DNA of 64,000 bases, from contig NC_015589.1 in NCBI RefSeq assembly GCF_000215085.1, positions 806,001 through 870,000 on the forward strand. The letters run 5' to 3'. Shown here piece by piece: positions 27,290-34,240 of the stretch (its first letter is position 1; every line of letters starts with the position of its first letter). A program made the position numbers and the translations under genes. The notes beneath the pieces were generated by a model. The model did no database searches, was not told the origin of the DNA, and saw only the letters and a list, made by a program, of their open reading frames with translations. This stretch comes from Desulforamulus ruminis DSM 2154. Lineage in GTDB: Bacteria; Bacillota; Desulfotomaculia; Desulfotomaculales; Desulfotomaculaceae.

Positions 27290-27796
27290 TTATAAAGACT
27301 TATTTAAAGTAGTGGATGGAGCATCCCGGCGTAGTTTGCGGGGGCTCCTTGGAGCTAGGCAGCAAGCATTGCCTGCGGCGGCATTGCGGATGGTTTCCGC
27401 GGTGGATTTAAGCGTTGTACAGAGATGCGGTGAAATTTCTATATTTAATTTTGAATGGCGCATGGTATAGCGTGTATTGGCCGGACATCCCTTGCATTTA
27501 TCAGCTTGTTTCTTCATGAAATCCAACTGATGGGATGTGGGGCGAATATAACCTCTTTCACAATGTTCAAAAAAGTCTTTAATTCCCAGTGGGTCATCTT
27601 CAACAGGACAGTTGCAAACAATTTCCACTGAATCAGGCTTCGCGTTCATATGAGAGGTGACTAACTCACAAACAGACATCCCCAAAGTACCTTTGGCTTT
27701 TAACGGGCAGGAACAATTACTGCAAGACTCAAAATTTTTCTCCCCGCAGGTCTTTCGGATATCAACTACCTCTCTGAAATTATTCACTCGTATCAT
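27290..27796 (-). CDS. Cysteine-rich protein of unknown function
   Basis: 168 residues from the ATG at 27796 after ATGGAGG. About a dozen cysteines occur, several as close pairs: CSNCSC near the N-terminus, CNC near the middle, CKGC, and CC near the C-terminus. This could hold an iron-sulfur cluster or zinc. There is no signal peptide or membrane segment. The C-terminus is basic and ends in RSPRKLRRDAPST. It lies opposite to the flanking signalling genes. I do not recognise a family. Confidence 0.7.
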   Translation of the reverse strand: MIRVNNFREVVDIRKTCGEKNFESCSNCSCPLKAKGTLGMSVCELVTSHMNAKPDSVEIVCNCPVEDDPLGIKDFFEHCERGYIRPTSHQLDFMKKQADKCKGCPANTRYTMRHSKLNIEISPHLCTTLKSTAETIRNAAAGNACCLAPRSPRKLRRDAPSTTLNKSL

Positions 27797-28161
27797 ATAT
27801 ACCTCCATGATTGGTCAACAACAAAGTAGTTGTAAGCCCGCCTCCAGGTGAAAAAAACCCATTCCTGGAAATTAACCTAGATTGACAACATTCGACAGTG
27901 CGTTAAAAAATCCTTTTAATTCATTCTAACATTTTTGAAGTTTTTTAAATAGCTACAAAAATCATATTTAAATTATAAAGAATTTTTAATGAAATTCAAA
28001 TGTTTAAACTATTTGCTATCGGGCTTATAACGGCTTACCCATTCCATTGGGGATGAGTGACAAGACAAGCCATTGTCATTAAAATAGAACATGTAGTAAA
28101 GAAAGGAGAAAATTTAAGGATGGGTTAAGGTCCTTTCAACCGGATTAAGGGGTGGATACCG
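27797..28161. other. AT-rich intergenic region, no gene seen
   Basis: Divergent region between the Cys-rich gene and the sigma-54 regulator gene. Several AT-rich promoter-like stretches are present, but no consensus -24/-12 element or convincing small ORF was found. Confidence 0.3.
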
Positions 28162-29692: not shown

Positions 29693-30349
29693 ATGTCTGA
29701 GATTAAGTTAACGGACAGCGAAATGAAATATCTGGAATCCATTGGTTCGGTGGTGAAATATCCCAAGGGACAGATTATTTTTGCAACCGGGCAAAAAACC
29801 AACGAAGTTTATTTTATAAAGACCGGTTGGGTGAAGATCTATCGGACTTCCATGGACGGACGTCAGGTATCGGTGGCTCTCCGCTACCCCGGGGATTTTA
29901 TTGGTTTGGCGGAAGTCTTAAGTGACGAACTGGAGAGAGAATACAATGCAGAGGCCATGGACAATGTTTCTCTTTTAATCGTCTGGAGAGATACCTTTAA
30001 TAAAATGTTGTCTCAAAATCCCATATTTACCGCCCGGGTTTTGAACTTAATGGGCAACCGGCTAAGGGAAGCTCAGAATACCATTCATGATTTTATTATT
30101 AACCCGGTGCAGGGACGCCTGGCCCTGGTCTTAGAAAATATGGCCTTACGGTCGGGAATTGCCGGGGACGGCAACATTGTTCGCGTTCGTTTAAGAGTGA
30201 CCCAGGAGGAACTGTCCTGTATTGTGGGGGCCTCCCGCCAGACCGTGTCTTCCCTTTTAACCTTATTCAGAGAAGATGGATGTTTAGAATATGAAGGAAG
30301 AGAAATAACCTCAATCAATTTAGAAAAACTAAGAAGTTGGATGGAATAG
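29693..30349 (+). CDS. Crp/Fnr-family transcriptional regulator
   Basis: 218 residues, ATG after GTGGGGGAGGG. A cyclic-nucleotide-binding-type beta roll (~20-110, YPKGQIIFATGQKTNEVYFI), a long dimer helix, and a Crp-type winged helix-turn-helix (~165-215, VTQEELSCIVGASRQTVSSL). There is no N-terminal cysteine cluster, so it is not a classical oxygen-sensing FNR; the effector is unknown. It directly precedes the SLC13/AprA-like operon and a near-perfect palindrome between them is a candidate operator. Confidence 0.93.
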   Translation: MSEIKLTDSEMKYLESIGSVVKYPKGQIIFATGQKTNEVYFIKTGWVKIYRTSMDGRQVSVALRYPGDFIGLAEVLSDELEREYNAEAMDNVSLLIVWRDTFNKMLSQNPIFTARVLNLMGNRLREAQNTIHDFIINPVQGRLALVLENMALRSGIAGDGNIVRVRLRVTQEELSCIVGASRQTVSSLLTLFREDGCLEYEGREITSINLEKLRSWME

Positions 30350-30371
30350 CCGGATTATATCCGGTTTTTTA
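30350..30371 (+). terminator. Terminator of Crp/Fnr gene
   Basis: CCGGAT pairs with ATCCGG followed by TTTTTTATTG, directly at the stop codon. Confidence 0.8.
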
Positions 30372-30424: not shown

Positions 30425-30458
30425 TGACAAATGTCGGCAAACCGACAGAAATTTGTCA
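30425..30458 (+). promoter_or_regulatory. Nested palindrome, candidate Crp/Fnr operator
   Basis: A core TGTCGG-CAAA-CCGACA, 6-bp half-sites spaced by 4 bases like FNR-type sites, lies inside a wider repeat TGACAAAT ... ATTTGTCA. It is between the regulator gene and the transporter gene, about 110 bases ahead of the latter's start. Confidence 0.55.
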
Positions 30459-30568: not shown

Positions 30569-32077
30569 GTGTCAAGTACGACATCCATGGATTTATCAAA
30601 CAATAAAAAGGAACTTTTAACGGGAGGCCAGGGAAAACAGCCTGGTTCGCAAAAAAACTATGCTCTGCCGGGATTTATACTGGCTTGGCTGGTGTTTGCG
30701 GCAATTATAACAATGGTCCCGGTTTCCGAAGGGGGTTTAAGCGCGGAAGGCCGGGCAGCCTTGGCGGTAATGGGGTGGGCAACCGTTATCTGGTTAACCA
30801 ACGCGCTTCCCATTGGTATCTCTGGACTTATGATCCCGGTGCTTTTAAAATTAACCGGCGCGCTGCCCAAAATACCGATGGCTTTTGCCGGCTTTACCAA
30901 GGATGTAACTTTCTTGATTCTGGGTTGCTTTATCCTGGCTGCGGTGATGCAGACCACCGGATTGGACCGGCGGATTGCGCTGGGCATTGTTTCCAGAGTA
31001 AAACCCAAGGTGGGCAGCGTAATTAAGGGGTTAATGGCGGCTCACTTGGTCATGGCGGTATTGGTTCCGGCAACCAATGCCCGGGGCGCGGTTTTTCTGC
31101 CCATTGTCTCAGGTTTAAATAACCTGTTTGGCAAAACCGGGGATGGCCTCCGGGCCAGAAAAGTTCTGACCATGGTGGGAATCGGGTTTGCTTCATTGGC
31201 CTCCGGAATTGTCTTAATGCACAGCCATATGTCCAACGTCATCGTGGCCCAAACCATTAATCAGAGCGTAGGAGCCAACACCATCACCTGGAGTAAATGG
31301 GCCTGGATGAACTGGCCTATGTTGGGTGTACTGGTAATCATCTATTTCTGGTGCAACTGGATATTAAAAACCAAAAATATTGAGGTGCCCGGCGGCATCG
31401 AGGAAGTAAAGATGCAGAAGGATGCACTGGGCAAAATGTCTTTCACCGAGTGGGTGGTCCTAGTGGCCTTTTCCATGGCCATTCTTCTCTGGGCCACCGA
31501 TGAGTTCCATAAGCTGGGTTCGGCTATTGTCACCCTAGGGGTGGTCATGCTGCTGTTTATCCCGGGGCTGACCAACCTTTGCTGGAAAAAGGTACAATCC
31601 AATACCATTTGGGGCACCTGGCTTTTATTGTGCGGTTCCCTGTCGCTGGTGGACGCCTTTGGAAGCACGGGAGTGGATAAATGGCTGGCCTCCCATCTGG
31701 TTGGCATAGCGCCTGCCTGGGGCTGGATCGGAGTTACACTGTTCGTTTGTATTGTAGTACAGATTCTCCGACTGGGAATAGTCAGCAATGTGGCGGCAGT
31801 GACCTTGCTGGCCCCCATTGTGGCAGCCATGGCGCCGATGCTCCATTTAAACACGGTGGCCTTTACCATGGCGGTATTAAATGTGGACAGCTTCGCCTTT
31901 GTATTGCCTATCTCAGTTACAGCCTGTCTGATTGCCTACGGTACTGAAGAGTTCAGCTTTGCGGAGTTTGTTAAAGTAGGGGCGCCCCTGACACTCATGG
32001 TCATTCTGTATACGGTTTTCATTATGTTGCCATGGTATGCCTTTACAGGATTCCCAATCTGGGTGCCGACTAACTAA
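30569..32077 (+). CDS. SLC13/DASS-family anion transporter
   Basis: 502 residues from a GTG at 30569 after GGGGAGATGG; the longer frame from 30512 lacks a ribosome site. About twelve membrane helices in the divalent anion:Na+ symporter pattern, including WLTNALPIGISGLMIPVLL and the repeated family motif region with VPATNARGAVFLPI. Family members import sulfate, dicarboxylates or tricarboxylates with sodium. Its stop codon is 16 bases before the AprA-like gene, so the transporter probably brings in the substrate, or exports the product, of that oxidoreductase. The substrate is unknown. Confidence 0.9.
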   Translation: MSSTTSMDLSNNKKELLTGGQGKQPGSQKNYALPGFILAWLVFAAIITMVPVSEGGLSAEGRAALAVMGWATVIWLTNALPIGISGLMIPVLLKLTGALPKIPMAFAGFTKDVTFLILGCFILAAVMQTTGLDRRIALGIVSRVKPKVGSVIKGLMAAHLVMAVLVPATNARGAVFLPIVSGLNNLFGKTGDGLRARKVLTMVGIGFASLASGIVLMHSHMSNVIVAQTINQSVGANTITWSKWAWMNWPMLGVLVIIYFWCNWILKTKNIEVPGGIEEVKMQKDALGKMSFTEWVVLVAFSMAILLWATDEFHKLGSAIVTLGVVMLLFIPGLTNLCWKKVQSNTIWGTWLLLCGSLSLVDAFGSTGVDKWLASHLVGIAPAWGWIGVTLFVCIVVQILRLGIVSNVAAVTLLAPIVAAMAPMLHLNTVAFTMAVLNVDSFAFVLPISVTACLIAYGTEEFSFAEFVKVGAPLTLMVILYTVFIMLPWYAFTGFPIWVPTN

Positions 32078-32093
32078 AAAGGAGGAACAATGG

Positions 32094-33854
32094 ATGCCAA
32101 GAGCCCAATTACCTCAAACCATTGATGCAGCAGAAGAAGTTCGCATTGATACGGATATTTTAATTATTGGTGCAGGAAATGCCGGATGTTTCGCGGCCAT
32201 CGAAGCGAAGCGGATGAATCCGGAATTAAAAGTCACTTTATTGGAAAAAGCGCATATTGATCGCAGTGGTTGCCTAGCCGGCGGCATGGATGCCATTAAC
32301 ACCTATATTAAAAAAGGACGCACCATTGAGGATTTTGTACGCTGGAGCCGTTCCCAGGCCGGAGGTTTACTGCGGGAAGATCTCACCATCAGCATGGCGG
32401 AAGTATTAAACCAGCCCATTGAAGAGTGGGAAGAATGGGGTATGCCCATAAAATATGAAGAAGACGGTGATGAATATAAAACCCGCGGTAAATGGGACAT
32501 CACCATCAGCGGCTCTGAAATGAAGGTCATTCTGGCGGAAAAAACCCGGGAATCCGGCTGTGAAATTATTAACCGGGTTGTAGCCACCAATTATTTAATG
32601 GAAGGCAATAAGGTTATCGGCGCCATTGGTTTTGGTGTCCGGGACGGTAAAGTCTATATCCTGCGGGCCAAGGCTACCATCATTGCCACCGGTGGTGCGG
32701 CCGGTCTATATAAACCCTATCAAAATGACGGCAACGACTGCCATCATCAGCTTTGGTATTCGCCCTTTAACGTAGGAACCGGCTTTGCCATGGGCATCCG
32801 TAAAGGTGCGGAAATGACAACCTTTGAAATGCGCTGGTGCGCAACCAGAACCAAAGATTTTAACGGACCCATTGATACCATTTCCGTGGGTTATAAAACC
32901 CCGATGATAAACTGCAAGGGAGAGCAAATTCTCAAGACCCGCTATGCTCATTTAGGCGGGGATGCGGCTCCGCGTTTTATCCGGGCCAATCTGCCCATGG
33001 ATGAATGGCGTGAGGGACGGGGTCCTTGTTACGTGGATACCACCCATATGACCCAGGAACAAATTTATGATATGAAGTACGATTACCTTAACGAGCGTCC
33101 CAGCTATGTGCTGTTCCTGGCCGGCCGGGCCCAGGATTTAAGTAAGGAACCCATTGAAATCTACGGTTCCGATCCATATATTGTTGGCGGTCACACAGCC
33201 AGCGGTTACTGGGTGGATGTAAAAAGAGCCACCACTTTGCCCGGATTATTTGCCTGCGGCGATGTGGCCGGTGGTACCCCGAACAAGTTTGTGGGTGGCT
33301 GTGCCGCCGAAGGATTGCTTTCCGCCAGGTCAGCCGTTGAATACGTAAAGGATATGGAACTGGGCACAATCGATCAAGATCAGATCACTCAAGAGAAAGA
33401 TCGGATTTTTGCACCGGGTTTTCGTCAAATGATTGTTGGCGATGGTGTTAAGCCCAGGGAAATGGAAGAGAGATTACAACGTTTAATGGATGAATATGCC
33501 GGTGGAGTGCATCAGTTCTTTAGAATGAATGAGGAAGGTTTGCAATATGCCCTGCGTCATATCCATCAGATGAAAGAACAAGTCCAATATTTGATTGCTT
33601 CCGATCTGCACGAACTAATGGAAGCCCATGAAATCATTGATCGTCTGGATGTGGCCGAAACGCTGGTGCACCACCTCATGTACCGCAAAGAAACCAGATG
33701 GCCGGGCTGGCAAACCCGTGCGGATTTTCCGGAAAAGAATGATGAAAAGTTTGACTGCTTTGTGAACTCCCGGTATAATCCTGAAACCCGAGAAGTGGAA
33801 ATGTTTACCCGTCCCTATGAGCAGTTGATCCCCGGTGATCGTTTAAAAGCCTAA
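32094..33854 (+). CDS. AprA-like FAD-dependent oxidoreductase (adenylylsulfate-reductase alpha family)
   Basis: 586 residues; the ATG at 32094 is 8 bases after AAGGAGG. An FAD-binding Rossmann motif LIIGAGNAGC (~24-32) is followed by the AprA-type EKAHIDRSGCLAGGMDAIN and FEMRWCATRTKDFNGP (~244-259), which parallels the substrate-site RxxxxRxKDxxGP segment of dissimilatory APS reductase. GLFACGDVAGGTPNKFVGG is the C-terminal FAD motif. From memory, true AprA is longer, and its partner gene encodes a longer AprB. No sat or qmo genes lie nearby. It forms an operon with an SLC13 transporter and a ferredoxin, so it may reduce another anion. APS reduction cannot be excluded. Confidence 0.85.
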   Translation: MPRAQLPQTIDAAEEVRIDTDILIIGAGNAGCFAAIEAKRMNPELKVTLLEKAHIDRSGCLAGGMDAINTYIKKGRTIEDFVRWSRSQAGGLLREDLTISMAEVLNQPIEEWEEWGMPIKYEEDGDEYKTRGKWDITISGSEMKVILAEKTRESGCEIINRVVATNYLMEGNKVIGAIGFGVRDGKVYILRAKATIIATGGAAGLYKPYQNDGNDCHHQLWYSPFNVGTGFAMGIRKGAEMTTFEMRWCATRTKDFNGPIDTISVGYKTPMINCKGEQILKTRYAHLGGDAAPRFIRANLPMDEWREGRGPCYVDTTHMTQEQIYDMKYDYLNERPSYVLFLAGRAQDLSKEPIEIYGSDPYIVGGHTASGYWVDVKRATTLPGLFACGDVAGGTPNKFVGGCAAEGLLSARSAVEYVKDMELGTIDQDQITQEKDRIFAPGFRQMIVGDGVKPREMEERLQRLMDEYAGGVHQFFRMNEEGLQYALRHIHQMKEQVQYLIASDLHELMEAHEIIDRLDVAETLVHHLMYRKETRWPGWQTRADFPEKNDEKFDCFVNSRYNPETREVEMFTRPYEQLIPGDRLKA

Positions 33855-33871
33855 GAACAGGAGGTTAAGCT

Positions 33872-34177
33872 ATGCCGCCAGTAGTATATCAGGAAAAATG
33901 CAAGGGTTGTGGAAAGTGCGAGGAGATCTGCCCCGGAGATTTACTGGAATTAACGGAAGAAAAAAAGATTGTTTGCCGTGCCCCCAGGGATTGCTGGGAT
34001 TGCATGGCCTGTGTAAAAGCCTGTCAGTTTGGTGCCCTGGAAACCAGAATACCTTATCAACTGGGATATTATCCTGCCAGACTGATCCCTAAAATGAGGG
34101 ATAAGGAAATTGAATGGACCAGTATTGATATTCATGGGAAGGTAGAGAAGTTTTTAGTAAAAACCCGTAACAAGTAA
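33872..34177 (+). CDS. AprB-like two-[4Fe-4S] ferredoxin
   Basis: 101 residues, ATG after AACAGGAGG, 17 bases after the flavoprotein stop. Two complete cluster motifs: CKGCGKCEEICPG (~11-22) and CWDCMACVKACQFG (~45-55). The C-terminal ~40 residues extend past the ferredoxin core as in AprB but are much shorter than in the classical subunit. It would pass electrons to the FAD of the preceding protein. A long terminator follows, closing the three-gene operon. Confidence 0.92.
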   Translation: MPPVVYQEKCKGCGKCEEICPGDLLELTEEKKIVCRAPRDCWDCMACVKACQFGALETRIPYQLGYYPARLIPKMRDKEIEWTSIDIHGKVEKFLVKTRNK

Positions 34178-34190
34178 TATACACGAATTT

Positions 34191-34240
34191 ATCAATTCAA
34201 AAGCCGATCTGAGTCCGCTCAGGTCGGCTTTTGAATTGAT
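34191..34240 (+). terminator. Long operon terminator
   Basis: A stem of more than 20 bp (arms starting ATCAATTCAAAAGCC and ending GGCTTTTGAATTGAT) with a 4-base loop and one wobble. Confidence 0.8.

Follow-up and report, generated by a model that had tools for sequence, protein, structure and literature searches.

Dissimilatory adenosine 5′-phosphosulfate (APS) reductase, AprBA, combines a FAD subunit with a partner that carries two [4Fe-4S] clusters and an electron-transfer Trp. In A. fulgidus AprA, the residue numbering of which we use throughout, N74, W234, R265, and H398 hold the sulfo group, with D361 acting through water, Y95, V273, G274, and H446 touch the phosphate and ribose, R317 and L278 clamp the adenine, and Y95, W144, F261, F277, and F448 line the channel (PMC2211403); the role of Q145 was taken from a separate study (PMC10322725). 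The 3′-phosphoadenosine 5′-phosphosulfate (PAPS) reductase of Methanothermococcus, MtPAPSR, was shown to prefer PAPS (PMC10322725), and this enzyme and the CysDN- or CysC-linked assimilatory AprBA of Firmicutes have a short AprB. Here, we analyzed a 64-kb window of the Desulfotomaculum (Desulforamulus) ruminis genome (bases 806001-870000 of a single contig of 3,969,014 bases), to which all coordinates below refer unless given in Mb. A three-gene operon at 30569-34177 encodes a DASS/SLC13 transporter, an AprA-like flavoprotein (AprA2), and a short two-cluster AprB (AprB2), and a Crp/Fnr gene adjoins it. We propose, at about an even chance in our estimate, that AprBA2 is a FAD enzyme that is supplied with electrons and reduces a small non-nucleotide sulfo-anion taken up by the cell, and that the cassette would be a self-contained acceptor-utilization unit.

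AprA2 keeps the sulfo-group pocket of AprA and has a changed AMP channel

D. ruminis is a gut bacterium with sulfate respiration. AprA2 (32094..33854, plus strand; 586 amino acids) was identified based on profile and structure matches, alignment, and tree. Its open reading frame opens at 32037, and the ATG at 32094 is the most likely start based on an AAGGAGG ribosome site and a length of 586 amino acids as in relatives. AprA2 scores above the cut-off of the NF005331 model "adenylyl-sulfate reductase subunit alpha" (653.8 bits; cut-off, 557) and below that of the TIGR02061 aprA equivalog (412.1 bits; cut-off, 641.75). The closest solved structure is MtPAPSR (8a8o; E = 9e-162), followed by dissimilatory APS reductase (1jnr; 8e-104). 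PF02910 picks up AprA2 and misses the canonical AprA of D. ruminis, and this profile alone would therefore wrongly suggest a single AprA in the genome. AprB2 (33872..34177, plus strand; 101 amino acids) has two [4Fe-4S] motifs, scores 64 bits against TIGR02060, and matches the beta subunits of 8a8o and 1jnr; in the alignment, the eight cluster cysteines and the electron-transfer Trp are kept, and the long C-terminal tail is missing. The DASS gene (30569..32077, plus strand; GTG start at 30569; 502 amino acids) was assigned from PF00939 (189.5 bits; cut-off, 27), from TIGR00785 (190.4 bits, slightly below the cut-off of 198.6), from a match to VcINDY in the PDB, and by motif comparison. A sequence-only reading of the window had delimited an operon of an AprA-like flavoprotein, a short ferredoxin with two 4Fe-4S motifs, and an SLC13 transporter at exactly these coordinates; the gene identities are real and far beyond chance, and the ferredoxin is indeed short.

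In an alignment of 37 AprA2 proteins, the sulfo-group residues N74, W234, R265, D361, and H398 are invariant. On the AMP side, all 37 share the changes Y95W, Q145D, F261W, V273I, G274D, F277S, and H446N, and L278 is replaced by V in 35 of them, while R317, W144, and F448 are kept. Of the substrate-site arginines, R265 is invariant and R317 is retained. Trp or Asp at positions 95, 145, 261, and 274 was found in none of the other AprA classes examined. Compared to dissimilatory AprBA, with which AprBA2 has the FAD subunit with N74, W234, R265, and H398, the two-cluster partner, and, in many relatives, Qmo/Hdr-type electron partners in common, AprA2 is only 33-40% identical in the alpha subunit, has a rewired AMP channel, lacks sat linkage, and is linked to DASS, whereas AprB2 lacks the long tail. 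The suspicion from the sequence that AprA2 is not a canonical APS reductase is supported.

The same alignment bears on the possibility that the enzyme reduces an organic dianion, i.e., performs a fumarate-like C=C reduction with DASS as acceptor/product exchanger. AprA is a member of the fumarate reductase superfamily, known DASS relatives exchange dicarboxylates (PMC5840216), and a regulator-transporter-reductase layout is, from what is known of such families, typical of organic-acceptor cassettes. However, the HPT...RGEG catalytic segment of fumarate reductase and the GANRL arginine of SdhA/NadB are absent from AprA2; in their stead, the N, W, R, and K typical of AprA are retained. We consider this alternative unlikely.

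AprA2 forms a clade of its own

In a maximum-likelihood tree of 58 proteins, a quick tree with long outgroup branches, 27 AprA2 proteins form one clade (SH-aLRT 99) outside canonical AprA, the class adjoining sat-aprBA, and the CysDN/CysC-linked reductases. Forcing AprA2 together with canonical AprA was not firmly rejected (approximately unbiased [AU] test, p 0.072), and for a union with the PAPSR/assimilatory class, the rejection was weak (AU p 0.039); the order of branching in this tree is accordingly tentative. Placement inside the bona fide AprA clade, which would count against a separate pathway, is therefore not what the tree recovers, although the union is not firmly rejected. AlphaFold modeling of AprA2 with 16 close relatives gave a poor capping-domain model (mean predicted local distance difference test score, 66), and a plasmid search returned only more distant AprA-like proteins (best, 42.5%).

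MtPAPSR and the assimilatory AprBA are the closest sequences (about 40-47%), and MtPAPSR is the closest solved structure, which would favor AprBA2 being a PAPS reductase like MtPAPSR. The P/APS loop residues differ, however: K120/R121/S122 of the MtPAPSR PAPS loop correspond to K/W/D in AprA2. MtPAPSR and its assimilatory relatives adjoin cysC, cysD, or ABC-type transporter genes, and AprA2 does not. More than half of the AprA2 carriers tested have no full APS kinase match. The APS kinase gene of D. ruminis has glycosyl- and methyltransferase-like genes as neighbors, which probably form a polysaccharide cluster, and it was rejected as support for a PAPS route. With the weak rejection of the tree grouping, we regard a PAPS reductase as extremely improbable.

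Other AprA classes were met in these searches. In L125, L126, and L138, from other families in the class, an AprA paralog 42-46% identical to AprA2 lies directly beside sat-aprBA in the order AprA-AprB-QmoA-like protein (~790 amino acids)-sat-aprBA; this doubled APS reductase locus has a pocket of its own, RGKWNIE. A further AprA-like group (L171-L176) adjoins neither DASS nor sat and has a distinct conserved pocket, RGRWNIK ... PTGTLALGF. A Desulfosporosinus metagenome bin (L147:1-5200) has an MtPAPSR-like AprA beside cysC, cysD, and cysN, likely a bacterial PAPS reductase of the Methanothermococcus type.

The cassette recurs with DASS and occurs in genomes lacking PF01747 ATP sulfurylase

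Within the class, 24 of 113 genomes have AprA2, and it was also found in additional families of the phylum; named genera with relatives are Desulfosporosinus, Desulforamulus, Desulfocucumis, Desulfoscipio, and Anaerospora. We compared the neighborhoods of 39 loci, grouped by hand into 21 lineages. Crp and AprA2 recur in all 21 lineages, DASS in 20, and AprB2 in 18 by open reading frame; tblastn detected AprB2 in all loci examined that way. An HdrA/MvhD-like protein is present in 13 lineages, small downstream proteins in 6 and 4, and HdrB in 3, and of further recurrent gene clusters, one was found in 8 lineages and two in 3. No sulfur enzyme besides AprA2/AprB2 recurs with the cassette. In many loci, AprB2 is followed by HdrA/MvhD or AsrAB-like NAD(P)H modules. 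A longer cassette was seen in L052 (5482-14387), where genes for HdrA/MvhD-like, AsrA-like, and AsrB-like electron-transfer proteins lie between AprA2-AprB2 and DASS.

The linkage to SLC13/DASS held up in related genomes: an intact DASS gene is present in most loci, compared to none of 26 loci for the other AprA classes. The DASS proteins share between about 30% and 81% identity with that of the window, and in L164, a 31% identical DASS adjoins a 79% identical AprA2, as though a different transporter had been recruited to this position for the same task. The cassette DASS matches VcINDY, CitT, and NaS1 in family membership and length; in contrast to these, its first SNT substrate/Na+ motif is replaced by ATN (PATNARG in the window), ATV, AAV, or TVA, and an H-[MFL]-x-N segment is conserved.

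The sequence-only reading had also noted that sat and qmo genes are not near the operon. This is correct, and a genome search located a separate complete sat-aprBA-qmoAB-hdrBC locus at about 3.435-3.445 Mb. Two previously reported dsrAB pairs (0.385-0.389 Mb and 3.786-3.790 Mb) are among the several sulfite reductase genes of D. ruminis, and no PF01507 protein was found in its genome, which has been published for strain DL (PMC3569383). PF01747 ATP sulfurylase is absent from the AprA2 carriers G491, G525, G528, G185, and G236 (99-100% complete), G270 (80% complete), and Anaerospora; it is also absent from the L052 metagenome bin, which has CysDN and CysC plus a separate PAPSR-like AprA. The sole PF01507 hit above cut-off in Anaerospora lies among phage genes and was rejected as CysD. 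In Sat-less genomes, the cassette is flanked by NAD synthesis, moeA, c-di-GMP, and amidase genes; these are not conserved and were rejected as a clue to the substrate. Because the same package occurs in bacteria without the main sulfate-activating enzyme, AprA2 probably acts on a sulfur compound other than that of the sulfate route.

These data bear on the main alternative, in which AprBA2 would be an isoform of APS reductase for low-sulfate or assimilatory use, served by a DASS sulfate importer of its own and by APS from a Sat encoded elsewhere in the genome. D. ruminis has Sat, some DASS carry sulfate (PMC5840216), AprA2 exceeds the NF005331 cut-off and keeps R317, W144, and F448, and a neighborhood of assimilatory AprBA with a CysD-type gene is already known as a class. 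Against this, seven carriers are without PF01747 ATP sulfurylase, AprA2 adjoins neither sat nor cysDN in any of the loci read, and its AMP-side pocket is unlike that of every (P)APS-linked class examined. We view this alternative as rather unlikely.

A predicted Crp-type operator precedes the operon

The Crp/Fnr-family regulator gene (29693..30349, plus strand; PF00027 and PF13545) is separated from the operon by a terminator-like hairpin with a T run at its stop codon (30348..30366, plus strand); in this region, hairpins of this kind are no more frequent than in shuffled sequence, and the argument for this one is that it directly follows the stop codon. A predicted Crp-type operator, TGTCGGCAAACCGACA (TGTCR-N6-YGACA), lies at 30432..30447 (plus strand) and is the sole exact match in the window. 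Among 29 orthologous Crp-DASS intergenic regions, 16 have an exact match (shuffled expectation, 0.005) and 23 have a match with at most one mismatch (expectation, 0.385); the motif was first read from some of the counted loci, and several of the loci are closely related, which makes the count partly non-independent, although the excess is very large. Directly 3′ of the operon, a 22-bp inverted repeat (one G-T pair, 4-nt loop; 34192..34239) read from the sequence is a probable transcript end. Of the sigma-54 and Crp/Fnr regulators that had been noted upstream, Crp/Fnr is kept next to the cassette in relatives, whereas the sigma-54 regulator is not conserved there. Between a histidine kinase gene and that of the sigma-54 regulator, a cysteine-rich open reading frame of 172 codons (27290-27808, minus strand) has no Pfam or NCBIfam match.

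A proposed sulfo-anion reductase and its candidate substrates

A one-step sulfo-anion reductase is the simplest account of these observations, because the sulfo chemistry seems to be kept, the nucleotide site is rebuilt, Sat is not needed, and the gene is accompanied by a transporter and a regulator, and often by an electron module, whereas a second sulfur enzyme is lacking. In the proposed direction of transport and reaction, DASS would import a small sulfur oxyanion or other sulfo-anion, and electrons would reach AprA2 through the two [4Fe-4S] clusters of AprB2, coming from the HdrA/MvhD module where the cassette has one and from a housekeeping donor in D. ruminis. The N5 of reduced FAD would attack the sulfonyl sulfur as in APS reductase, giving a FAD-sulfite adduct and then sulfite; the leaving group would not be AMP, since two Trp and two Asp have been added to the nucleotide channel. 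The Crp-type protein would switch the operon via TGTCR-N6-YGACA.

Thiosulfate, with sulfide as the leaving group, is our leading guess for the substrate, and a doubtful one. Both thiosulfate and sulfite are respired by D. ruminis, sulfur oxyanions are among the substrates of some DASS, N5 attack on the sulfonyl sulfur of thiosulfate would release sulfide, and the low potential of thiosulfate fits Hdr-type electron delivery. More broadly, it is possible, at somewhat less than an even chance, that AprBA2 represents a new enzyme class, i.e., a FAD/[4Fe-4S] enzyme that works without a nucleotide and directly forms or cleaves the S-X bond of a sulfur oxyanion. It would convert thiosulfate or a similar compound to sulfite, or oxidize sulfite without AMP, in coupling with Hdr electron modules and a dedicated anion transporter.

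The reaction could also run in the opposite direction, with sulfite adding to FAD N5, an Asp (145 or 274) activating water at the place of the AMP phosphate, sulfate being released and exported by DASS, and electrons passing to ferredoxin/Hdr. Such an AMP-independent sulfite oxidase would fit the two invariant carboxylates at or near AMP-contact positions; a TauE/SafE exporter gene adjoins the cassette in Desulfoscipio, and a YeiH-type gene precedes it in L170. However, the sulfate/sulfite couple has a very low potential and would allow net oxidation only with low-potential acceptors, the carriers are mostly sulfate reducers, and PMC11206085 reports that D. ruminis is not able to grow by or carry out thiosulfate disproportionation. 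We consider a sulfite oxidase quite improbable.

Several points weigh against the proposed reductase of an imported sulfo-anion. The DASS gene is a decayed remnant in L037, L050, and L169 while AprA2 is intact, which argues against strict dependence on DASS; in L050, a TauE/SafE exporter gene is close by. With R317, W144, and F448 kept, binding of some nucleotide is still conceivable. For G491, G525, G528, G185, G236, and G270, the absence of ATP sulfurylase refers to PF01747; the search for CysDN, the other enzyme of this kind, covered Anaerospora, D. ruminis, and a few other carriers or relatives. With the first SNT motif lost, the substrate of DASS is not readable from known transporters. 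As for thiosulfate, its use is, to our knowledge, widespread and not confined to AprA2 carriers, and phsA was reported in Desulfofundulus salinus. The idea in the sequence-only reading of an undescribed pathway that imports an anion and reduces it in an AprA-type site stands in part: the dedicated DASS linkage and a likely distinct substrate are supported, and the sulfur-compound branch fits the conserved sulfo pocket, whereas DASS is decayed in three lineages and the dicarboxylate branch is disfavored by the missing fumarate reductase motif.

Our literature searches found no description of the cassette. Two genome papers, the gibsoniae paper being one of them, count only one APS reductase each, and the AprA2 locus was thus passed over. 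A second aprAB set in Desulfofundulus salinus (PMC11206085), seen as a separate cluster, is possibly the same cassette, compared by its description only; it was listed under sulfate reduction with no function of its own assigned. AprA2 appears to be mislabeled in databases: this whole AprA clade, which occurs in Firmicutes, is labeled APS reductase by a curated NCBI model, despite altered nucleotide pockets in all members examined and the lack, in several carriers, of the ATP sulfurylase tested. If AprA2 handles another sulfo-anion, aprA-based counts of sulfate reducers would be inflated, and the cassette would provide a cytoplasmic, transporter-fed route for intermediate sulfur species that could be tested with one purified enzyme.

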